The position numbers were made by a program, and so were the translations under genes. A model generated the notes under the pieces. It had not been told where the DNA came from. It made no database searches and saw nothing but the letters and a program-made list of their open reading frames with translations. Below are positions 36,674 to 49,571 of a DNA stretch of 64,000 nucleotides, piece after piece. Numbering within the stretch: position 1 is the first letter of the stretch; each line of letters begins with the position of its first letter. The stretch comes from Leptolyngbya sp. FACHB-8 (GTDB taxonomy: Bacteria; Cyanobacteriota; Cyanobacteriia; Elainellales; Elainellaceae), in the NCBI RefSeq assembly GCF_014695575.1, contig NZ_JACJOO010000087.1, positions 124,001 through 188,000 on the forward strand, read 5' to 3'.

Positions 36674-39600
36674 ATGCTTTCATTGCCCCCTCTTCTGCTT
36701 GTCCTGCTGGCGCTTTTGCTCGCAGGAATTGTGGCGATCGCCCCCTTTTCCCCTGCTGCTGCTCAGGAAGAGCTCGCTGAACCGCCTACAGTGATTTTCC
36801 CGATGCCCTCGGCGGTGACGAATAGCACCACTGTGCGCATCGGCGGTTCGCCTCTGATGGCTCCTATCAATAAATCCTTAAAGCGCCAGTTTGAGGAGCA
36901 GTTTCCTGGCACGGAAGTGCAGATAGAGGACGGCCCCGACACAAGTACGGCCCTGCAGGCTGTACTCAATGGCGACCTGGATCTGGCGGCCATTAGTCGC
37001 CCGCTGACGGCTGAGGAGAAGGCTCAGGGGTTGCGCGTGATCCCGGTGAGCCAGGATAAAGTTGCCATTCTGATCAGCCAGGACAACCCTTTTAACGGCA
37101 GCCTGACCCTGGAGCAACTGGCCCAGGTTTTTCGGGGTGAGATTACAGATTGGGCGGAACTGGGCCGAGAACCGGGGTTGATTCGCATTGTGGATCGTCC
37201 TCCCATTAGCGAGACCCGTCTTGCTCTGGAGCGCTACAAGCTGTTTCCGGAGGGTGAGCTGCCCATAACTCTTAACCGGGTGCAGCTTGAACAAGATGAC
37301 ACTCAGGAGATGATCCGGGAGTTGGGGCGGAATGACATTGGCTATGCGATCGCCAATCAGGTTCGCAACCAACCCGCCGTTAAACCCATCAAAATTGCCA
37401 TTCTGCAAACGACGCTTCCGGGCGATGCCCTTTACCCCTACTCTCAAGTGCGGGGCTATGCCTATCGCGATGAGACCGATTCCAATGTGAAGTCGTTCCT
37501 GGGCTTCACCTCGACAGATGTGGGGCGAGATGCGATCGCCACGGCCCGTAAAGAAGAGGCCCGTGTGGCAACCCGTCCGGTGGTTGCTCCGGTAGCGGAA
37601 GCTCCTAACGAAGACGTAGCCACGCTTCCCCCGAGCGAACCGGCACCCGGCTTTTCTTTAGAAAAGGTTCCCGTGTGGGTCTGGTTCCTGGTTCCCGTTT
37701 TTCCACTCTTCCTTTTCCTGGCAGGTCTGTTACGGAGGCGGCCCCGTCGCACGCCCCAGCGGCCTCCAATAACCCGAAGAGCGGCCCAGGAGCGCACCCC
37801 TGTAGCAACCCCCGTTGAAGACGACGACATTCTGGACAACTGGGAAGAAGACGAGGCTCCTGCTACGGCTGAGGCTGTAGTGGATGAGGATTTAGAAGAC
37901 TGGGAAGAAGCCCAAATGGAGCCTTCGACCTCGGTTGAGGCTGCCGTAGATGAGGATTGGGAAAATTGGGAGGAATCCGAGGTTTTGGAACCTTCGGTTA
38001 CGGTTGAGGCTGCCGTGGATGAGGGTTCAGGCGGTCGGGAGGATGAAGAAGCTCCGGAACCTGTTGTCGTGCTGGAAGATATGCCGGCGGCCCCAGGTTT
38101 ATCTGTAACGTCAGAAACTCCATCGGTAGCAGAGGTAATGGGAGCTATTCCGGGCCTTTTCTCGCAGGGGATGGAGCTGTTTGAGGGCGATCGCTTTGAA
38201 GAAGCCCTGCCCTATTTCCAGCAAATCACTGAGCAGCAGCCCGATCGATCTGATGCCTGGGTGCTTCAGGGTCAAATTCTCCTGGCCCTGGAGCGGCTAC
38301 CCGAAGCTCTCGATGCCTTTGAGCAAAGCCTGGGGTTAGATCTGTCTCTGGAAGCTGCCTGGATTGGCAAGGGAGATGTCCTGACGCGCCTGGGTCGGAC
38401 TGAAGAAGCTCAGGCCAGTTATCAGCAAGCTGCAGAATTGGAAGCCGTACTGACGGAACCCAGCGAAGGGGAAGCTGTGGAGGCGATCGCCCCAACTCCC
38501 GAAGCTCCAGCTTCGCCTGTTCTCCACGACGCGATTGAAACAGCCGAACCCGCGTTGGCTCCCTCTGCTAAGGTGACAGAATTACTGACCGAAGAACCAT
38601 CCCCAAGCACTGAATCATTAACAGAACCAGTGGATGGCGTCTCAGAGCCAGCCATTCCTGAAGCGGTTGTTGAAGAACTCGTATCGACAATTGAATCAAC
38701 GACGGTCGAGGAATCATTGCCGACCCCCGACCCCATCGTGGTGGAGGCGAGCCAGCCTGAGGGGACGCCCATGATTTCGGAGCCTATGGCTGCCCCGAAA
38801 ATTCCTGAACCTGTAGTTGAGGAGCCTGCTGCTGAGCCTGTAACCCTTTTACCGGTTGATTCAGAAGTGATCGCGGCGTCTGAAATCCCAGAGTCTGGGG
38901 TTGAAGAAGCAACTCCTGAAGCGGTTGTCGAAGAACTGGTATCGACGATTGAGTCAACGACGGTCGAAGAACCATTGCCGATCCCTGAACCCATTGTGGT
39001 AGAGGCGAGCCAACCAGAAGGGACGCCCATTATTTCGGAGCCCATGGCTGCCCCAGAAATTCCTGAACCTGTGGTCGAGGAGCCTGCTGCTGAGCCTGTA
39101 ACCCTTTTACCCATTGATTCAGAAGTGATCGCGGCGTCTGAGATCTCAGAGCCTGGGGTTGAAGAAGCCGTTCCTGTGTGGGCGGCTGAAGCGATCGCCC
39201 CAGTTGCCCCAGCACCCCTAGAAGCAACCACGCTGCCCTCGCCAATCACAGCCGATGCGCTCAAACAGGCATTTCAGGAGCGGTTAAGAACCTATGGCAA
39301 AACCGTTCAGGGGGCTACTCCCAATGAGGCGTACCTGGCTCTGGCATCGGTTCTTTGCGATCACTTGCTAGAGCGCCGTACCCCTGAGGCTACGTTAATA
39401 GCGACCGATGGACGGCTGATTGCTCAACTCTCGGCAGAATACTTGCCCGGTCCTCATTTAAGAAATGCTCTCGTTAGTCTGGAATGTCTGGAAACCACCG
39501 AGCACGTTCTGGAAGACCTGGGGCTGCATCTAACCTCCCTGCTGCAACAGGAAGAAGAACCTGGCTTGGGGCGTGGCAACTTGGGACGGCTGATGATGGA

Positions 39601-41629
39601 TTACCTGGATTCTCTGGCAACTCAGGACGTTCCTGCCATTGGTTATGGCCTGCGCTACGAGTACGGCATTTTTGACCAGGAAATCCGGGATGGTTGGCAG
39701 GTTGAGGTGCCGGACAACTGGCTGCTATACGGCAACCCCTGGGAGGTGGAGCGGGGCGATCGCACCCTTACCATCCAATTCGGGGGCTACACCCAGTCCT
39801 ACACCGATGAACAGGGCCGTTATCGCGTCCGTTGGGTGGCCGCTCAGACGGTACAGGCCCAATGCTTCGATACGCCTGTTCCTGGTTATGCGACCGATAC
39901 CGTAAACCTGCTGCGTCTATGGCGAGCCAACACCGACGATAGCCTCTGCAAAGTTCTCTATCCTGTGAATGGAGAGGATCATGGTGCAAATTTGCGCTTG
40001 CGGCAGCAGTTCTTCCTGGTGTCCTGTGCAGTGCAGGATTTGCTGCGGATGCATCAGGAGAGCGGCCAACCCTGGGATGCATTACCCGATCGCCTTGCAC
40101 TTCATTTGAACGACACCGATACGTTGCTGGCGATTGCTGAACTGATGCGCCTCCTGGTGGACGTGCATGAGCTGGAGTGGGAGGCTGCCTGGGATCTCAC
40201 TCAACGTACCCTGACCTACAGCAACCACAGCCTCTTGCCCGAAGCTCTGGATGATTTCTGGTCGGTGGCGTTGTTTGAGGCGGAGTTACCCCGGCACTTG
40301 CAAATTATTTATGAGATCAATGCACGCTTTCTGGATGGGCTGCGATCGCAATTCTTCGATAATGCAAAAATTCAGCGCATGTCTTTGATTGGGGATGGGG
40401 CTGAACAACGGATTCGTCTCACTAATTTGGCCTGTATCGGTACGCATGCCGTCAATGGCGTCTCTCGTTTCCACACCCAGTTGTTAGAGCAACGGATCCT
40501 ACCAGATTTTTACAGTTACACCCCCGATCGCTTCCACACCATCACCAATGGCATGAGTCAACGGCGATTTTTGGCCGTAACCAACCCGCTGCTTGCGGAG
40601 CTGATTACGCGGGCGATCGGTCAGGATTGGTTGCGCAACCCTGAAGCATTGAGCCAGTTGGAGCCTCTGGCCAATGACGATGCTTTTTGTGCCCAGTGGC
40701 AACAGGTGAAACGAACCGGTAAGGAGAACCTGGCCGGTTGGATTCAGGAGCGTCTGGGACAGACCGTGAATCCAGATACTCTGTTTGATGGGCAGGCTAC
40801 GGTGATTCACGAATATAAGCGGCAACATCTGAATGTGCTGCATATCCTGACCCTCTACCATCGGCTCAAGACGGACCCTAATTTAGACATTCTGCCGCGC
40901 ACATTCCTGTTCAGTGGAAAAGCTTCCCCGGACTACACCATTGCCAAGTTGATGATCAAACTGATCACCACCGTGGCCGAGCGGATCAATACAGATCCAG
41001 ATGTAGCGGGACGGCTAACAGTACTATTCCTGCCCGACTTTACCCAAAAACTGGTTGAGGTCATTTATCCAGCGCTGGATCTATCCGAGCATCTCTCCCT
41101 GGCGGGAACAGAAGCGGCAGATACGGCCAACATGGCAGCGGTTCTTAATGGGGCATTGCTTATTGGTACCCCCGACGGCTCCAACCTGGAGCTTCAGGAG
41201 ATCCTGGGAGAAGGCAGTTTCTTCCCATTCGGTCTAACGGAGCCGGAAGCCCAGATGTTACAGGAGGAGGGCTATCGACCCTGGGAGATTTATGAGCGCA
41301 ATACCGAACTGAAAGCCGCAATTGATGCCTTTGTAGATGGCTCGCTAACGCCCTCTGATCCGCAACTATTCCGCCCTCTGGTAAGTCAGCTCCTGTCTCA
41401 AGATCCCTATCGGGTACTGGCAGACTACACCGCCTATACCGCTGCTCAAGAGCAGGTTGGCGATCTCTACCGCCAGCCCCTGACCTGGACTCGCCAATCG
41501 ATTCGAGCCGTGGCACGGATGGGTCGCTTCTCCAGCGATCGCGCCATCCAAACTTACCAACAAACCCTGTGGCAGGTGCAGCCTCGGGGCGATCGCCTGC
41601 ACCTGCTTACCTCCCCCCCTTATGGCTGA
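36674..41629 (+). CDS. PstS-like domain / membrane / TPR / inactive glycogen phosphorylase fusion
   Basis: Domains of the 1651-aa product: signal or anchor (1-31); PstS-like type 2 periplasmic-binding domain (~45-300; GSPLMAPINKSLKRQF, DLDLAAISRPL, VFRGEITDWAELG); transmembrane helix (~332-350) followed by Arg; three acidic D-x(4)-WEE repeats (~384-455); two to three TPRs (~491-592); an 86-residue Glu/Pro/Val repeat in two copies (~662-833); and a glycogen phosphorylase domain (~860-1651). The last aligns end to end with the intact GlgP at 47067, but the PLP lysine of NMKF is Ala1488 (NMAA) and GTGN is DTAN, NDTHPS is NDTDTL, NGGLGRL is RGNLGRL. It should bind rather than degrade glucan. Topology places the PstS part outside and the rest in the cytoplasm. 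A role in sensing phosphate or another ligand and glucan is inferred. The frame continues past its TGA (see next entry). Confidence 0.85.
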   Translation: MLSLPPLLLVLLALLLAGIVAIAPFSPAAAQEELAEPPTVIFPMPSAVTNSTTVRIGGSPLMAPINKSLKRQFEEQFPGTEVQIEDGPDTSTALQAVLNGDLDLAAISRPLTAEEKAQGLRVIPVSQDKVAILISQDNPFNGSLTLEQLAQVFRGEITDWAELGREPGLIRIVDRPPISETRLALERYKLFPEGELPITLNRVQLEQDDTQEMIRELGRNDIGYAIANQVRNQPAVKPIKIAILQTTLPGDALYPYSQVRGYAYRDETDSNVKSFLGFTSTDVGRDAIATARKEEARVATRPVVAPVAEAPNEDVATLPPSEPAPGFSLEKVPVWVWFLVPVFPLFLFLAGLLRRRPRRTPQRPPITRRAAQERTPVATPVEDDDILDNWEEDEAPATAEAVVDEDLEDWEEAQMEPSTSVEAAVDEDWENWEESEVLEPSVTVEAAVDEGSGGREDEEAPEPVVVLEDMPAAPGLSVTSETPSVAEVMGAIPGLFSQGMELFEGDRFEEALPYFQQITEQQPDRSDAWVLQGQILLALERLPEALDAFEQSLGLDLSLEAAWIGKGDVLTRLGRTEEAQASYQQAAELEAVLTEPSEGEAVEAIAPTPEAPASPVLHDAIETAEPALAPSAKVTELLTEEPSPSTESLTEPVDGVSEPAIPEAVVEELVSTIESTTVEESLPTPDPIVVEASQPEGTPMISEPMAAPKIPEPVVEEPAAEPVTLLPVDSEVIAASEIPESGVEEATPEAVVEELVSTIESTTVEEPLPIPEPIVVEASQPEGTPIISEPMAAPEIPEPVVEEPAAEPVTLLPIDSEVIAASEISEPGVEEAVPVWAAEAIAPVAPAPLEATTLPSPITADALKQAFQERLRTYGKTVQGATPNEAYLALASVLCDHLLERRTPEATLIATDGRLIAQLSAEYLPGPHLRNALVSLECLETTEHVLEDLGLHLTSLLQQEEEPGLGRGNLGRLMMDYLDSLATQDVPAIGYGLRYEYGIFDQEIRDGWQVEVPDNWLLYGNPWEVERGDRTLTIQFGGYTQSYTDEQGRYRVRWVAAQTVQAQCFDTPVPGYATDTVNLLRLWRANTDDSLCKVLYPVNGEDHGANLRLRQQFFLVSCAVQDLLRMHQESGQPWDALPDRLALHLNDTDTLLAIAELMRLLVDVHELEWEAAWDLTQRTLTYSNHSLLPEALDDFWSVALFEAELPRHLQIIYEINARFLDGLRSQFFDNAKIQRMSLIGDGAEQRIRLTNLACIGTHAVNGVSRFHTQLLEQRILPDFYSYTPDRFHTITNGMSQRRFLAVTNPLLAELITRAIGQDWLRNPEALSQLEPLANDDAFCAQWQQVKRTGKENLAGWIQERLGQTVNPDTLFDGQATVIHEYKRQHLNVLHILTLYHRLKTDPNLDILPRTFLFSGKASPDYTIAKLMIKLITTVAERINTDPDVAGRLTVLFLPDFTQKLVEVIYPALDLSEHLSLAGTEAADTANMAAVLNGALLIGTPDGSNLELQEILGEGSFFPFGLTEPEAQMLQEEGYRPWEIYERNTELKAAIDAFVDGSLTPSDPQLFRPLVSQLLSQDPYRVLADYTAYTAAQEQVGDLYRQPLTWTRQSIRAVARMGRFSSDRAIQTYQQTLWQVQPRGDRLHLLTSPPYG
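38657..39172 (+). repeat. 258-bp direct tandem duplication inside the fusion gene
   Basis: Two adjacent 258-bp units (38657-38914 and 38915-39172), highly similar in nucleotides, encode 86-residue Glu/Pro-rich copies starting PEAVVEELVSTIESTT. The repeat preserves frame and lies in the linker before the phosphorylase domain. Confidence 0.9.
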
Positions 41630-42106
41630 CTGGCAGAACCCCCCGCCCCCAAGGCACAACCGGCAGACGTTGCTGATACTCCCCTGCCCCTGCTCGAACC
41701 CCTTCCAGTAGAACCAACCCCGGCTTCTCCACCCTCTACACGCCTGACGATTAACAGTCAACAAAACTGCTACGTTCTAGAACCTGACCTGATGCAGCAG
41801 TTAGAACAAACTGCTGTATCCAAAAACCTATCTTCGGGCCGTTACCAAATCCGCATTCATGGTGGAGGGTTTGGGTATCGGGCTGGGGAAGCAAGCGAAC
41901 CCATCGTGATGCTCTGGATCTATGGGGGGCGCTTTGTGAATCAGGATACGGGGGTTGAAGTGGAGGCTACCTGGGTTACCCTCAACGGCTATGACGATAC
42001 ACTTACCCTGGAGGTTCTGGAATCTATTACTGTCGCGGCCTTTTTCTTTGATGTTCATCGGGAGGATAATGAGGGCGAACTGACATTGGCCTTCACCCGG
42101 CTGTAG
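41630..42106 (+). pseudogene. In-frame continuation of the preceding gene beyond one TGA: shared C-terminal domain
   Basis: The TGA at 41627-41629 is followed, in the same frame and without another stop, by 158 codons to TAG 42106. After a Pro/Ala linker this part encodes a domain (LMQQLEQTAVSKNLSSGRYQ, VMLWIYGGRFVNQ, TWVTLNGYDDTLTLEVLE, DNEGELTLAFT) that is homologous to the C-terminus of the next gene. Without the TGA the gene would run 36674-42106 (about 1810 residues). It is therefore a nonsense-split gene, a readthrough product or a sequencing error. A start at ATG 41792 without a Shine-Dalgarno would give only the isolated domain. The domain's function is unknown; the pattern suggests a beta-sandwich. 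Confidence 0.8.
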
Positions 42107-42195: not shown

Positions 42196-45078
42196 ATGAA
42201 ATCTCGTTCACTGATTGGTGTGTTTCCCCTGTTGATGACGTTGGCGATCGCCCCTGAACCGATGGGGTTTGCGCTGCAACGGGAATTCACCATTGCCCAT
42301 GCCACCCGCAGTACCCCTGCTCCTGCACCCTTTCCGCCCCCCCAGGAGGTTCCCGAGGGGACAATCCTGGAAGTTGACGGCTCCCGCAGCCTGATTTTGC
42401 TGAACGAAACCTTGCGACGGCAGTTTGAAGAAGCATTTCCTGGCACAACTTTGAGGATGGCCGCTGACGGAACCCCGGATGCCCTGAATCGATTGCAGCA
42501 GGGAGGCGTAGATCTGGTGGCGATTGGACGGCCTCTGTCTTCGCAAGAAAAGGCCGAGGGATTGGCGGAAGTGCCCCTACGGCGAGAAAAGATTGCTCTG
42601 ATTGTGAGTAAAGACAATCCGTTTCAGGGGCAGATTAGCTTTGATCAATTCGCCCGTATTGTTTGGGGTGAAATTACGAACTGGGAGCAACTGGGTGGCT
42701 CCGATCGCCCTGTACGCTTTATCGATCGCCCGGAAACTAGCGATACCCGTCAATCTCTCCGCTATTACGATATTTTCGCGGGCAAGGTGAGAACTGGGAA
42801 AACGGCGGTTCCGGTTGATGGGGATGAAACGGCCGGGGTGATCGAGGCCTTGGGGAAAGATGGCATCGGGTACGCCCTTTATAGCCAGGTGAAGGACAAC
42901 CCGGATGTCCGAATTGTGAAGATGCATGGGGTTTCTGCCGATAGTTCCCTCTACCCCTATTCGCAGTCTCAGGGATATGTGTATCGCAAAGAGAATGTGA
43001 GCGAGGGGGCTCAGGCGTTTTTGGGATGGGCCACCTCAGATCCTGGGAAGGCAGCGGTGACAGCGGCACGGAATGTGACCTGGAGTCAGCTTCCGGCTGA
43101 GGTACTGGCGGCGAATGCGGCCCAGTCTTCGGGTGGCCCCAGAACCGCTGGCACAACAACGGCTAATTCTCCTCAGGGCACCGGCAGCGAGCCTGCCGTT
43201 ACTGGTGCAGCCTCTTCCTCAGACCGCCCCGCCGAACCGTCTGGGGCTTTCACTACCACCGCCCCTAGAGGAGCGACCACAACCGAGCCTACAGCTCCCT
43301 CCTCCAACACTGAGGGGCCGGATGCGGCTTTCCCCTGGTGGATTTTCCTGATTCCGCTGTTGCTGGCCGGTGTGTTGTTGTTACTGCGCCGTCGCCATGA
43401 AGCCAGTGCACCGCCACCTCGCTCGCGGGCGATCGCCTCTCCACCTCCACCCGAAGCTTTGCCGGGCGCAACGGAGCCTGCTGTTAGCTTTGCTCCCAAG
43501 TCTGAGCCGCAGCCCTTGCCAGAAGTCAATCCATCAGCAGGAAATACCTTAAATACAGCAGAGCCACCTCTCCACAATAATGGGGCCGCTTTGCCAGGGG
43601 CGGCGATCGCCGGGCTGGCGGGAACGGCTATTCCCCGAAAGGCTCCCAAACCAGTTACTCCCTCCCCTCGGCGTTCCAACCCTGTCATTCCAGATCCCTG
43701 GGAAACGCCTTCATCGGTTGCCGCTGATGCTTCAGCCCCTGTGGCGGAGTCATCGGCTGCTGAGACGGGGCCTCCCGTTGAGGCAGGAGACGCAACGGCG
43801 GATCCGGCAGAGTCTGTGCGTGAGCAACCCGCAGCAGTTGTTCCAGATTCGGTCGATGCTGATCCCGCAGTGGAAGGCCCTCCGGTGGAGGCTGCACCAT
43901 CTGAATTCATGGATGATGCCGCCGTTTTAACGGGAGCAGGAGCGATCGCTGCAGCCGTCATTGCAACTTCCCTTGCCTCTCAAGCGGGTACCCCTCGAAC
44001 CCCTGGGGAGGGATCTGGTGCTCCCCTGTCAGAACCCAGCGAGGAGGCCGGAGGAGAGGAGCCGGAGGTGGTTCCTGCTGAAGTAGTACCTTCTATAGGA
44101 GCTTCGACTGAGAGCCCTTTGCCTGCTCCTGAGGCTGAAGTTGTGACAGCCGTGGCTGATGTGGCTGGCTACGAGGAAAACCACCTTCCTGTCGATGGGG
44201 ATGCACTTGATGCCGCTGAACCCGTTCCAGAACCGTTGGATGATGCAGCCGATTTGACAGAAACCGCTGCCCTGGCTGGAGCGGCGATCGCCGCAAATGC
44301 GACAGAACCGACACCCGAAACGATGGTAGAGTTGCCATCGGAAGAGGAGGCGATCGCCCATCCCTCCCATGAAGAATTACCGCTCGTTCCGGCTGATGAG
44401 TCTGGTAATCCTATGGAGGAGCAGGATGCAAACCCAGCGCTTGCAACGGGTGCTACTGCGGCTGCATTAGCGGGGCTGGCAATTGCGGCTCAGTCCTCCG
44501 ATGAAACTGAGACGGAGCCCTCTCACTCGGTTGAAGTGGCAGCAGAACGGCAGCGGGATGAGGACAGCTCGACGGAGGCCGATTTCATTCCCATGGATGA
44601 GGCACCCGAACCGCTAGAGCATGAGGATAGACTGCATCTGGTTCCGCTAGAAGCGGATGCTTCTGGTATACCAGAGCCCGCGACCGAATACCTCACCGTT
44701 GATAACCGGGCCCACTCCTTTGTGCTGGATCCTTTGCGGATGCAGCAGATGCAAGAGGTGGCCGTTCGGTACCCATTAGACTCTGGCCATTACAAAATCT
44801 TCATTGAAAGCGGAAACTTTCATTATCAGGCCGCTTCAGGTCATCCAGGTGAACCCTGGGTACTGCTATGGATTTATGGTGGAAGATTTATCAACCAGAA
44901 AACCCGTGTGCCAGTGTCGGCTACGTGGTCTACTTTGAATGGTTATCACGACAGCCTGACCCTGGAAGTGTTAGAGCCGACTACGCTCGCTGCGTTGTTC
45001 ATCGACACTTATAAGGGAGACAACGAAGGAGAACTGACCCTGTCTATTGAGCAGCTCTCCCCTCCAGAAACCCCCTGA
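42196..45078 (+). CDS. PstS-like membrane protein with shared C-terminal domain
   Basis: A 960-residue protein with signal peptide (~1-27), PstS-like domain (~50-300; LNETLRRQFEEAFPG, DLVAIGRPLSSQEKAEG, IVWGEITNWEQLGG), transmembrane helix (~378-397, FPWWIFLIPLLLAGVLLLL), a long Pro/Glu/Ala linker and a C-terminal domain (~835-960; VLLWIYGGRFINQ, TWSTLNGYHDSLTLEVLE, DNEGELTLSIEQL). The linker contains four Ala/Gly-rich hydrophobic patches (~463, ~575, ~690, ~748) such as GAGAIAAAVIAT, which may self-associate or touch the membrane. It lacks the phosphorylase part but otherwise mirrors the preceding gene, so the two look like paralogues, perhaps partners. It is 36 bp before pgi and probably co-transcribed. 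The ligand and the C-terminal domain's function are unknown. Confidence 0.85.
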   Translation: MKSRSLIGVFPLLMTLAIAPEPMGFALQREFTIAHATRSTPAPAPFPPPQEVPEGTILEVDGSRSLILLNETLRRQFEEAFPGTTLRMAADGTPDALNRLQQGGVDLVAIGRPLSSQEKAEGLAEVPLRREKIALIVSKDNPFQGQISFDQFARIVWGEITNWEQLGGSDRPVRFIDRPETSDTRQSLRYYDIFAGKVRTGKTAVPVDGDETAGVIEALGKDGIGYALYSQVKDNPDVRIVKMHGVSADSSLYPYSQSQGYVYRKENVSEGAQAFLGWATSDPGKAAVTAARNVTWSQLPAEVLAANAAQSSGGPRTAGTTTANSPQGTGSEPAVTGAASSSDRPAEPSGAFTTTAPRGATTTEPTAPSSNTEGPDAAFPWWIFLIPLLLAGVLLLLRRRHEASAPPPRSRAIASPPPPEALPGATEPAVSFAPKSEPQPLPEVNPSAGNTLNTAEPPLHNNGAALPGAAIAGLAGTAIPRKAPKPVTPSPRRSNPVIPDPWETPSSVAADASAPVAESSAAETGPPVEAGDATADPAESVREQPAAVVPDSVDADPAVEGPPVEAAPSEFMDDAAVLTGAGAIAAAVIATSLASQAGTPRTPGEGSGAPLSEPSEEAGGEEPEVVPAEVVPSIGASTESPLPAPEAEVVTAVADVAGYEENHLPVDGDALDAAEPVPEPLDDAADLTETAALAGAAIAANATEPTPETMVELPSEEEAIAHPSHEELPLVPADESGNPMEEQDANPALATGATAAALAGLAIAAQSSDETETEPSHSVEVAAERQRDEDSSTEADFIPMDEAPEPLEHEDRLHLVPLEADASGIPEPATEYLTVDNRAHSFVLDPLRMQQMQEVAVRYPLDSGHYKIFIESGNFHYQAASGHPGEPWVLLWIYGGRFINQKTRVPVSATWSTLNGYHDSLTLEVLEPTTLAALFIDTYKGDNEGELTLSIEQLSPPETP

Positions 45079-45114: not shown

Positions 45115-46701
45115 ATGGACCCAACCCAACTGTGGCAACGTTACCAGGACTGGCTCTACTATCATTCCGGCCTGGGCATATACCTGGACATCAGCCGGAT
45201 GCGGTTTGATGCCTCCCTGGTCGAGTCCCTCACGCCTAAATTTGAGAAAGCCTTCGCAGATATGGAGGCACTAGAGGCAGGGGCGATCGCCAACCCCGAC
45301 GAAGAGCGTATGGTTGGCCACTACTGGCTGCGGGATTCTGACCGCGCCCCCTCTCCTGAGCTAAAGCAGGCGATTGAAGACGGCCTTATTCAAATCGAGG
45401 AATTTGCCCGCAAAGTTCACAGCGGCGAGATCAAGCCCCCCGAAGCCGATCGCTTCACCGATTTGCTCTCGGTGGGTATTGGTGGCTCGGCTCTGGGCCC
45501 TGAGTTCGTTGCGGAAGCCCTGGCTCCCCTGAACGCTCCCATGCGGGTTCACTTTATCGATAACACCGACCCCGCCGGGATCGATCGGGTCATGACCCTG
45601 TTAAAGGATCAGCTCAAGAGCACCCTGGTACTCGTAACCACCAAATCTGGCGGCACCCCCGAGACGCGGAACGGCATGTTGGAGGTCAAGAACGTCTTTG
45701 ACCAGGCCGGGCTTAACTTCCCAGCCCATGCGATCGCCGTCACCATGCAGGGCAGCACGATGGACAAGTTCGCCAGCGATCAGCGCTGGTTGGCGGAGTT
45801 TCCCATGTTTGATTGGGTAGGCGGTCGCACCTCCGAAATGTCTGCTGTGGGTCTGCTTCCCGCCGTCCTCCAGGGTATCGACATCCGCACCATGCTGGCC
45901 GGGGCCGCCGAGATGGACGAAGCCACCCGCGCCAAAGACCTGAAGCAAAACCCTGCCGCTCTGCTGGCTTTGGCCTGGTATGCCTCCGGCAATGGCAAAG
46001 GGGAAAAGGACATGGTGATTCTGCCCTACAAAGACAGCTTGTTGCTCTTCAGCCGCTATCTCCAGCAGTTGATCATGGAATCCCTGGGCAAAGAGCTGGA
46101 TCTGGACGGTAACAAGGTCTACCAGGGCATCGCCGTCTATGGCAACAAAGGCTCCACCGACCAACACGCCTACGTGCAGCAACTCCGGGAAGGCGTTCCT
46201 AACTTCTTCGCCACCTTCATCGAAGTGCTCGAAGACCGCGACGGCCCCTCCATCGAAGTGGAGACCGGAGCCACCTCCGGCGATTTCCTCTCTGGCTTCT
46301 ATCAGGGCACGCGTCAAGCCCTCTACGAGAATGGCCGGGGCTCCGTCACCATCACCATTCCCACCGTCAACCCCCGCATCGTGGGCGCATTGATCGCTCT
46401 ATACGAACGGGCCGTGGGCTTCTACGCTTCCCTGGTCAACATCAACGCCTACCACCAACCCGGTGTAGAAGCCGGCAAGAAAGCCGCTGCCTCTATCCTC
46501 GACTTACAGCGCAAAGTCGTAGACGTTGTGAAAGCGACTGGGCAACCCCTCGATCTGGCTACCCTGGCTGAGAAAGTGGGCGCAGGCGATCGCATCGAAT
46601 CCATCTACCTGATTCTGCGACACCTGGAGGCTAACAAGCGCGGCGTGGTATTAGAGGGCGATCGCGCCAAACCCGCTACCCTAACCGTTAGTGCCGGTTA
46701 G
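45115..46701 (+). CDS. pgi: Glucose-6-phosphate isomerase
   Basis: [36 protein letters not shown], the catalytic Glu segment [12 protein letters not shown]-like region, [11 protein letters not shown] and a Lys-containing C-terminal region identify Pgi. The length of 528 residues fits cyanobacterial enzymes. It interconverts glucose-6-phosphate and fructose-6-phosphate and links glycogen breakdown to glycolysis and the oxidative pentose-phosphate pathway. GAGGTG lies 5 bp before ATG 45115. Position directly after the PstS-like gene (36 bp) suggests it is the last gene of an operon running from D-LDH. It is followed by dispersed repeat Z and a palindrome. Confidence 0.97.
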
Positions 46702-46975: not shown

Positions 46976-47066
46976 GCGTAAGTTCTAATTCCCCTTTCGG
47001 ATCGCAAAACAATCGAATTCGCTTTGGCTGACGGCCTTGCCCACGTCCATTCCAGAGGAACCCCCG

Positions 47067-49571
47067 ATGACCGCATCCATCAACCCCTCCACCCTCACCA
47101 CCGCTGGCATCCAAGACGATCGCACCGGCCTCCACACGGAAACCCTCAAACGCGCCTTTCTAGACAATCTTTACTACATCCAGGGCAAACTCTCCTCCGA
47201 CGCCACCCCCATCGATCACTACTTGGCCCTCGCCTATACTGTGCGCGATCGCCTCATTCAACGCTGGCTCAGCACTGGCCAAACCATGTGCCGCTCCACT
47301 ACCAAAATTGTTGGCTACCTCTCCGCTGAATTCCTCGTCGGCCCCCACCTCGCCAACAACCTGATCAACCTCGATATCTACGATCCCGTCAAGCAGGCGA
47401 TCGAAGAACTGGGGCTAAGCCTGAAAGAAATCATCAACACCGAAGAAGAACCCGGCCTCGGCAACGGCGGATTGGGACGCCTCGCCGCCTGCTATATGGA
47501 CTCCCTCTCCACCCTCCAAGTCCCCGCCATTGGCTATGGCATTCGCTACGAATTCGGCATCTTCGACCAGGAAATTAAGGACGGTTGGCAGGTCGAAATC
47601 ACCGACAAGTGGTTGAAATACGGCAACCCCTGGGAGATCGCCCGCCCCCAGGAAGCCATTGAAGTTAAATTAGGCGGCTATACCGAAAGCTACACTGACG
47701 AGCAGCAACGCTACCGGGTGCGCTGGGTTCCAAAACTCACCGTCGCGGGCATTCCTTACGACACCCCCATTCTGGGCTACAAAGTCAACACCGCCAACAC
47801 TCTGCGCCTCTGGAAAGCTGAATCTCCTGAAGCCTTTGACTTTAGAGCCTTTAACCAGGGAGATTACTGGGGAGCCGTTCACGCTAAAGTCATTTCAGAA
47901 AACATTACCAAGGTGCTGTACCCCAACGATGAGCAAATTCAGGGGAAACAACTGCGCCTGGAACAACAATTCTTCTTCGTCTCCTGCTCCCTGCAAGATG
48001 TAATCCGAAGGCATTTGAACTGTGGGCGCACCCTCGACACCCTGCCCGACAAATTTGCCTTGCAGATGAACGACACTCACCCGTCGATCGCCGTTGCCGA
48101 ACTGATGCGGCTTCTGGTGGACGAGCACCTGATGAATTGGGACGCTGCCTGGGACATTACCACCCGTACCCTCGGCTTTACCAACCACACCCTGCTACCC
48201 GAAGCCCTGGAAAAGTGGCCCGTTGCCCTGTTTGGAGAAATGCTGCCCCGGCATCTGGAAATTATCTATGAAATTAACCGCCGCTTCCTGGATCAGGTGC
48301 GTATGAAGTATCCCGGCGACGTTGGGAAGGTCATGCACGTCTCCTTAATTGATGAAAGTGGCCCCCGTTACGTGCGTATGGCTAACCTCGCCTGTGTGGG
48401 CAGCCATGCTATCAACGGCGTTGCTGCCCTTCACTCGGAACTGCTCAAGAAAACGGTTCTGCACGACTTCTACGACCTGATGCCAGAGAAGTTTAGCAAC
48501 AAAACCAATGGTGTCACCCCCCGTCGCTGGATTGCCGAGAGCAATCCCGGTCTGGCTCGTTTACTAACCCGTCAGATGGGGAGCGATCGCTGGCTCACCC
48601 ATCTCAGCGACTTGCGCCAGATGGAGGGCTCTGCCGATGACCCTGGTTTTCGCAACGAATGGCGCGGAGTTAAACGTGACCTGAAGCAAAATCTGGCTGG
48701 CTACATTGCACAGCGTACTGGCATTGCCGTTAATCCTGACTCGATGTTCGACGTTCAGGTGAAACGCCTCCACGAGTACAAGCGGCAACACCTGAATGTG
48801 CTGCATATTATTACGCTCTATACCCGTCTCAAAGACAATCCCAATATGGAGATGACGCCGCGCACCTGTATTTTTGGTGGCAAAGCGGCTCCAGGTTATG
48901 CCATGGCAAAGCTGATCATCCGGCTTATTAATGCTGTTGGGGAAGTGGTGAATCGCGATCCGGATGTGGGCGATCGCCTCAAAGTCGTCTTCATTCCTGA
49001 CTATAACGTCAGTTTAGGCCAACGTATTTATCCGGCTGCTGACCTCTCCGAACAAATCTCCCTGGCTGGTCTGGAGGCCTCTGGCACTGGCAACATGAAG
49101 TTCTCGATGAATGGCGCACTCACTATTGGCACTCTAGATGGAGCCAATGTAGAAATTCGCGAAGAAGTGGGCGAAGATAACTTCTTCTTGTTTGGCATGA
49201 AAATTGAGGAAGTCGCTGCTCTCCGGGCCCAGGGCTACCGTCCTCAGGACTATTACACCAGCAACCCTATACTGAAACGGGTTATTGATTTAATTGCCAC
49301 TGGCCACTTCTCTCAGGGAGATAGCAGTCTGTTTCGTCCGCTAGTGGATAATTTACTCTCATCCGACCCTTATATGCTTTTGGCAGATTACCAGTCCTAT
49401 ATTGAGTGTCAGGATCGGGTTAGCGCCGCTTACTTGAATAACGACGACTGGACACGGATGTCAATCTTGAACACAACACGGATGGGTAAGTTTTCGAGCG
49501 ATCGCTCCATCCAGGAATATTGTCATGACATCTGGAAAGCCTCTCCAGTCCCCGTCGAACTACACGACTGA
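47067..49571 (+). CDS. glgP: Glycogen phosphorylase
   Basis: An intact 834-residue GT35 enzyme: PGLGNGGLGRLAACYMDSL, QMNDTHPSIAVAELMRLL, KTNGVTPRRW, VKRLHEYKRQHLN, GGKAAPGYAMAK and the PLP-lysine site GTGNMKFSMNGALTIGT (Lys678). It phosphorolyses alpha-1,4-glucan to glucose-1-phosphate. AGAGGAA precedes ATG 47067 by about 7 bp; the extension to 47037 is not needed. No N-terminal phosphorylation or allosteric extension is visible. It follows pgi on the same strand and precedes phosphoglycerate mutase, giving a block for glycogen catabolism. It is the catalytic counterpart of the inactive domain encoded at 36674-41629, and the two probably share ancestry by duplication. Confidence 0.97.
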   Translation: MTASINPSTLTTAGIQDDRTGLHTETLKRAFLDNLYYIQGKLSSDATPIDHYLALAYTVRDRLIQRWLSTGQTMCRSTTKIVGYLSAEFLVGPHLANNLINLDIYDPVKQAIEELGLSLKEIINTEEEPGLGNGGLGRLAACYMDSLSTLQVPAIGYGIRYEFGIFDQEIKDGWQVEITDKWLKYGNPWEIARPQEAIEVKLGGYTESYTDEQQRYRVRWVPKLTVAGIPYDTPILGYKVNTANTLRLWKAESPEAFDFRAFNQGDYWGAVHAKVISENITKVLYPNDEQIQGKQLRLEQQFFFVSCSLQDVIRRHLNCGRTLDTLPDKFALQMNDTHPSIAVAELMRLLVDEHLMNWDAAWDITTRTLGFTNHTLLPEALEKWPVALFGEMLPRHLEIIYEINRRFLDQVRMKYPGDVGKVMHVSLIDESGPRYVRMANLACVGSHAINGVAALHSELLKKTVLHDFYDLMPEKFSNKTNGVTPRRWIAESNPGLARLLTRQMGSDRWLTHLSDLRQMEGSADDPGFRNEWRGVKRDLKQNLAGYIAQRTGIAVNPDSMFDVQVKRLHEYKRQHLNVLHIITLYTRLKDNPNMEMTPRTCIFGGKAAPGYAMAKLIIRLINAVGEVVNRDPDVGDRLKVVFIPDYNVSLGQRIYPAADLSEQISLAGLEASGTGNMKFSMNGALTIGTLDGANVEIREEVGEDNFFLFGMKIEEVAALRAQGYRPQDYYTSNPILKRVIDLIATGHFSQGDSSLFRPLVDNLLSSDPYMLLADYQSYIECQDRVSAAYLNNDDWTRMSILNTTRMGKFSSDRSIQEYCHDIWKASPVPVELHD

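Follow-up and report, generated by a model that had tools for sequence, protein, structure and literature searches.

RESULTS

Genes and features of the locus

The window, by which we mean the whole stretch of 64,000 nucleotides of Leptolyngbya sp. FACHB-8 DNA that was analysed, carries a run of genes in the order phosphoketolase, dehydrogenase, pseudo-phosphorylase, small C-terminal domain (CTD), large PstS-like/CTD membrane protein, pgi and glgP (Table 1); the phosphoketolase, the dehydrogenase and pgi were named by eye. The open reading frame of the large protein is genuine and encodes 960 aa from an ATG. GlgP, encoded two genes downstream, keeps the PLP lysine of GTGNMK and all other catalytic motifs. 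Another genome of the same genus, G001, keeps both halves of the window gene order, on two contigs.

Table 1. Coordinates of the features of the locus (window positions unless a locus is named)
Feature	Position	Strand	Basis
Neighbour, PstS-like + TM + TPR + pseudo-glycogen-phosphorylase, 1651 aa	36674..41629	+	domain scans
Pseudo-phosphorylase domain	39251..41620	+	family profile, motif reading
Pseudo-phosphorylase, 23-residue deletion	39911-39970		
Pseudo-phosphorylase, NDTHP changed to NDTDT	40109-40123		
Pseudo-phosphorylase, PLP lysine replaced (TANMA)	41123-41137		
TGA stop between pseudo-phosphorylase ORF and in-frame CTD stretch	41627..41629	+	translation; layout repeated in same-genus genome
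158-codon in-frame open stretch with second CTD (domain 41744-42103)	41630..42106	+	counterpart of relatives' small CTD gene
Large PstS-like/CTD membrane protein, 960 aa	42196..45078	+	ORF and translation, domain scan
PstS-like (PBP_like_2) ectodomain, residues 58-282	42367..43041	+	PF12849, E 6.9e-25
TM helix FPWWIFLIPLLLAGVLLLL followed by RRR, residues 379-397	43330..43386	+	hydropathy
Ala/Gly patch 1, residues 468-479	43597..43632	+	uncharged Ala/Gly-rich run
Ala/Gly patch 2, residues 575-595	43918..43980	+	uncharged Ala/Gly-rich run
Ala/Gly patch 3, residues 690-700	44263..44295	+	uncharged Ala/Gly-rich run
Ala/Gly patch 4, residues 748-765	44437..44490	+	uncharged Ala/Gly-rich run
CTD of large protein, residues 833-954, 120 aa	44692..45057	+	CTD profile match
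Glucose-6-phosphate isomerase gene pgi	45115..46701	+	by eye and 81% match to same-genus copy, not family scan
Glycogen phosphorylase gene glgP, catalytic motifs intact	47037..49571	+	PF00343, TIGR02093
VRTIVRREEEIVLIRRVRKVEEID-type motif	L037 6013-7257, L039 1457-2566, L129 9621-9926, L136 10923-11225, L138 11188-11517		

The large membrane protein

The large protein consists of a PstS-like ectodomain preceded by a hydrophobic, signal-like stretch, one TM helix, a linker of 426 aa and the CTD. An original prediction, made from the letters of the window, had placed a PstS-like domain at its N terminus, which the Pfam scan recovers, and had listed the CTD motifs WIYGGRF, LNGYxDxLTLEVLE and DNEGELTL as common to two copies in the window, and all of these are present. 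By the positive-inside rule, the CTD-bearing tail would be expected to lie in the cytoplasm. Pfam and NCBIfam scans of the large protein and its neighbour (P0001 and P0002) recognised no histidine kinase or other catalytic output domain.

The linker is disordered and rich in Ala, Pro and Glu. The four Ala/Gly segments that had been noticed in it exceed what composition alone yields, as at least four uncharged runs of 11 residues or longer arose in 3 of 5000 shuffles of the linker (mean 0.36 runs per shuffle), but their spacing, which had been called even, is only roughly so, and the two weaker patches are lost when hydropathy is cut more strictly over 19 residues. Counted from the hydropathy table, 36 of the 46 PstS-CTD ORFs have one or more hydrophobic, Ala/Gly-rich segments besides the TM helix. 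The patch is therefore a recurrent linker element, which may self-associate, as had been suggested, or touch membranes. Eight such segments, ~170 residues apart, lie in the linker of a 2292-aa Okeania protein, together with ten DUF4912 domains. DUF4912 (PF16258) likewise occurs in the linker of 36 of the 46 ORFs, with 1 to 10 copies each; Pfam backs these calls in 10/10 cases of one set and in 4/6 CTD-bearing ones of another. The 960-aa protein gives no DUF4912 match at E 0.1 and is among the ten ORFs without any, so that it looks like a family member in which the patches were kept and DUF4912 was lost. The predicted model of DUF4912 (pLDDT 85.2) is similar to FN3 domains (Z 9.4, rmsd 3.1, 89 residues aligned); we found no solved structure of this domain, and no function for it in the literature searched.

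The ectodomain is alike in fold and sequence to phosphate-binding proteins of the PstS, SphX and Sll0540 types. Unlike these proteins, it continues into a TM helix and cytoplasmic domains, its phosphate motifs are altered, and it scores under the cut-off of the NCBIfam PstS model TIGR02136 (64.7 versus 206.6 bits). Among solved structures Sll0540 (9l8j; E 5.8e-49) is closest to it; this protein appears in a list of potential phosphate-binding proteins (PMC3610870). A consensus built from 43 large and 7 pseudo-phosphorylase-fused copies reads DRPxxSDTR and GRPLT at the positions of TDSGT and ASRGI in the genome's own PstS. The consensus does not keep the SGT and ASR motifs of PstS, which we take to be the phosphate-contacting residues, and has SDTR and IGRP instead. 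Because both motifs are changed across the ectodomain family, the ligand has probably been altered.

A candidate family of C-terminal domains

The two CTD copies of the window are ~53% identical. A profile made from a 24-row alignment (A1) found the CTD in 48 of the 388 genomes sampled from the cyanobacterial class; a larger alignment (A2) has 122 rows, and W70, W89 and L92 in its numbering are invariant. A collection of 84,980 species gave 86 matches, 80 of which were kept; they amount to 74 distinct loci, each with a cyanobacterial title, and the hosts include Leptolyngbya-like strains, Okeania, Lyngbya, Nodosilinea, Spirulina, Scytonema, Nostoc and Fischerella. A search of this kind had been proposed as a check, with attention to fusion partners; the contexts of the CTD include PstS-like, DUF4912 and coiled-coil-like ones. 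The 122 members of A2 have no consistent match in Pfam or NCBIfam (the best NCBIfam model matches 11/122 at E 0.028), and the CTD of the large protein itself matches no curated family. The CTD profile matched no solved structure among PDB sequences, and no relatives were found in PHROGs, PADLOC or viral structures. The prediction of a candidate new family thus stands on the absence of a consistent family match or solved structure and on the cyanobacterial origin of all 74 loci.

AlphaFold2 predicts a helix and then a beta sandwich for the CTD (mean pLDDT 90.5). Its structural neighbours are mixed jelly-roll folds, the best of which (Z 6.4, rmsd 3.0, 77 residues aligned) is tied with unrelated folds, and Foldseek gave 0 matches at E 0.001 or better. 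In overall arrangement the predicted domain is like jelly-roll or cupin-like beta sandwiches such as the Clp1 N-terminal domain, TM1112 and GOLD; as no structural match is significant, the likeness may be one of common arrangement only. We rejected a relation to DUF4912, to which profile comparison gives a probability of 0.1%. Cyclic-nucleotide-binding and cupin chains are among the structural neighbours at Z ~5 to 6, not above background. We predict a jelly-roll-like beta sandwich for the CTD and regard the domain as a new family whose type of fold is a common one.

CTDs also occur in large proteins without a PstS-like domain, which carry two of them (L122 4963-9756, L191 9695-12238, L190, L192 and L193). 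In L122 and L191 the two CTDs are followed by long coiled-coil-like repeats, and L122 also has an N terminus that looks vWA-like by eye; a Pfam scan of these two-CTD proteins gave no family over the cut-off. Because the domain is found in proteins as different as L191 and L122, the CTD as such is not bound to a glycogen role. A conserved short motif of the VRTIVRREEEIVLIRRVRKVEEID type precedes CTDs within one protein or lies in a gene near CTD genes (Table 1).

The small and large genes form a conserved pair

The CTD of the named loci is found in two settings, as a small gene of ~130-145 aa, in many cases beginning with MEGC, and as the last part of the PstS-like membrane protein. Fifty-three large genes were in view, and 50 could be assessed after three that start near a contig edge were left out. 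The small CTD gene lies directly upstream on the same strand at 45 of the 50, in a set that was retrieved by CTD match and is therefore biased to CTD loci, though not to adjacency; the gap is <400 bp in 42 of the 45 pairs. Three of the five exceptions (L085, L116 and L118) are an extra large copy followed by another small-large pair, the L085 copy having TPRs in its middle. At L099 two CTDs lie within the large protein, and at L114 (genome G022) the small CTD gene is found elsewhere, behind the pseudo-phosphorylase. The idea that two-CTD large proteins replace the small gene, in the manner of a Rosetta stone, was rejected, being true only for L099; the proteins of G280, G084, G117 and G234 have the PstS-free architecture with two CTDs towards the N terminus.

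In a tree of CTDs, one clade (support 0.892) holds 56 of 72 small CTDs and one of 60 large ones, with the qualification that a few truncated large copies (e.g. L055) are labelled small and that the copies of the window genus are too diverged to place. Since the tree separates them with a single large intruder, the small and large types are probably old. Two large membrane proteins had originally been described as paired; what is conserved is a small CTD-only gene paired with a PstS-CTD gene, not two large proteins. The 960-aa ORF is the large member of this conserved cyanobacterial two-gene unit.

Two side observations concern the large gene. The genome of the window also encodes a PstS-like paralogue with two DUF4912 domains and no CTD (L066 7449-10742, G000:C95). 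At L076, L081, L084, L099, L119, L123 and L124 the large gene is closely followed by one for a short protein whose N terminus is similar to MFFEVLSAINDPNQQAS; the L084 copy of this gene has no NCBIfam match.

The second CTD of the window follows an in-frame TGA

The neighbour had been thought to share the C-terminal domain of the large protein. A second CTD does follow in frame, but the neighbour ORF stops at a TGA before it, and because the domain lies behind this stop the two proteins share no CTD strictly as annotated genes. None of the first 54 codons of the 158-codon stretch is ATG, GTG or TTG, and residue 55 already lies inside the CTD. The same GGC-TGA-CTG stop precedes an in-frame CTD in both genomes of the genus (at L056 838-840 in the second), and a GGAGGTGA-like site is present upstream of the CTD in G001, with none seen by eye in the window. 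A promoter scan gave fewer sites than in shuffles. Of 11 loci, 5 have the CTD in the reading frame of the phosphorylase, close to the 1 in 3 that chance would give, so that phase statistics do not favour read-through. In the comparison of the window with G001, a single pair whose high dS makes the values rough, dN/dS is ~0.23 for the small CTD domain and ~0.17 for the large CTD end; the linker behind the TGA, at 0.67 over 32 codons, is under little constraint. Read-through, a rare start codon and decay all fit the in-frame TGA.

The neighbouring phosphorylase is a pseudoenzyme

The last 790 residues of the neighbour are like glycogen phosphorylase (GT35, PF00343), scoring 884 bits against TIGR02093 (cut-off 552.9). 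Unlike that enzyme, the neighbour is fused to a PstS-like domain and a TM helix, lacks the PLP lysine, has NDTHP changed to NDTDx and is missing 23-24 residues. We could read 14 PstS-fused homologues, namely those of the window, 11 further genomes of the host family, L067 and L068 (L105 is a fragment and was left out). The PLP-binding lysine of GTGNMK is kept in none of the 14, which have A, M or I in its place, and NDTHP is changed in all of them. In 13/13 that cover that part, 23-24 residues before LYPND are missing. We presume that these are the tower helix of the phosphorylase dimer, and their probable removal argues against a simple heterodimer with GlgP. As judged from these motifs, the neighbour phosphorylase is catalytically dead, a pseudoenzyme, and it is under purifying selection despite the lost lysine, with a dN/dS of ~0.12 beside 0.07 for GlgP in the same rough single-pair comparison. 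Two-component sensing with one active partner had been suggested; this fails, since each of the 14 readable homologues is a pseudoenzyme.

A PstS-fused pseudo-phosphorylase is present in 12 of 36 host-family genomes, and all 12 are within the 20 that have the CTD. The hypergeometric probability of this co-occurrence is 1e-4 by genome and 0.017 by genus, both ignoring kinship in the tree. In G012, G025 and G031 pseudo-phosphorylase and CTD are on separate contigs. There is also a second, more degenerate phosphorylase-like family in which nearly all catalytic motifs are gone (L208 and L209 in G003, L210 in G020, and L098 2573-4546 in G033); this type and the double-CTD protein without PstS occur in the same three genomes, and the two genes adjoin in G033.

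As to other glycogen genes, glgC follows the small-large pair in seven Nodosilinea-type loci (4/7 confirmed by family scan), which count as one event because they come from one lineage. In most lineages outside the host family and the Nodosilinea group, no glycogen gene directly adjoins the pair among the neighbours that were listed and named by eye. At L129 the second gene after a solitary CTD gene encodes a GH13 enzyme. A tblastn search of plasmids gave matches in the PstS-like part only, among the best 10 of 14.

DISCUSSION

The occurrence of the small-large pair next to a dead phosphorylase in some cyanobacteria suggests a membrane-bound regulator of sugar storage. We tentatively prefer to see the unit as a scaffold or sensor that is tethered to the membrane and linked to glycogen metabolism, in which the CTD would serve for coupling. 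In such a device, the ectodomain would read an extracytoplasmic small ligand other than plain phosphate and the cytoplasmic tail of the large protein would act as a scaffold. Binding between the small and large CTDs, or of both to a shared partner, would couple the tail to soluble factors. In the host family the coupled factor would include the dead glycogen phosphorylase, which has its own PstS-like domain and TM helix. This would place the unit at the membrane in the vicinity of the glycogen enzymes, where it would retain or read glycogen or glucose-phosphates. The reading is weakened by the lack of a CTD in the paralogue with two DUF4912 domains, by the neighbours of the pair in most other lineages, by the presumed loss of the tower helix and by the quite different proteins, L191 and L122, that carry CTDs. 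No description of a system combining the CTD, the PstS-like domain and the pseudo-phosphorylase was found in the literature searched.

A somewhat unlikely alternative is a periplasmic sensor of phosphate or another anion with a general scaffold tail, for which the link to glycogen would be incidental and the pseudo-phosphorylase a lineage-specific add-on that senses glucose-phosphates. The PstS-like domain clearly has the fold of a periplasmic binding protein, and the pair lacks the pseudo-phosphorylase in most lineages, both as such a sensor would predict; the family-wide change of the two presumed phosphate-contacting motifs, with an acidic residue brought in where SGT becomes SDT, speaks against it. 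We consider it improbable that the unit is a purely structural scaffold of the envelope or thylakoid that does no sensing, with the PstS-like domain outside, an arm of Ala/Gly patches and FN3-like DUF4912 domains inside, and the CTD as a polymerising end. The range of DUF4912 numbers from 0 to 10, the recurrence of the patches, the FN3-like model and the association of CTDs with coiled-coil-like repeats would all suit a scaffold of this kind, which leaves the co-occurrence with the pseudo-phosphorylase unexplained. That the system is merely falling apart in the genus of the window is very improbable, for although the large protein has no DUF4912 and the small CTD has a TGA in frame and no usual start codon, the small CTD, the CTD of the large protein and the pseudo-phosphorylase are all under purifying selection relative to the same-genus genome, and the TGA layout is identical in both genomes of the genus.

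The glycogen-tied scaffold or sensor that we prefer can be given a more specific form, which we regard as highly doubtful. Here the unit would be a transmembrane glycogen regulator, in which the dead phosphorylase is a reader of glucan or glucose-phosphate controlled by a repurposed periplasmic binding domain and coupled by the new domain family; in the genus of the window, the CTD would be joined to it solely by read-through of GGC-TGA-CTG, giving two isoforms.

The CTD, so far seen in cyanobacteria only, is a candidate new Pfam family, for which there is a confidently predicted model and a number of fusion contexts. To our knowledge, little has been learnt about how cyanobacteria control glycogen turnover at their membranes. 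A fusion of periplasmic binding domain, TM helix and pseudo-phosphorylase that stays under selection after the loss of its lysine would, together with this new cyanobacterial domain family, offer a direct genetic handle on glycogen turnover.
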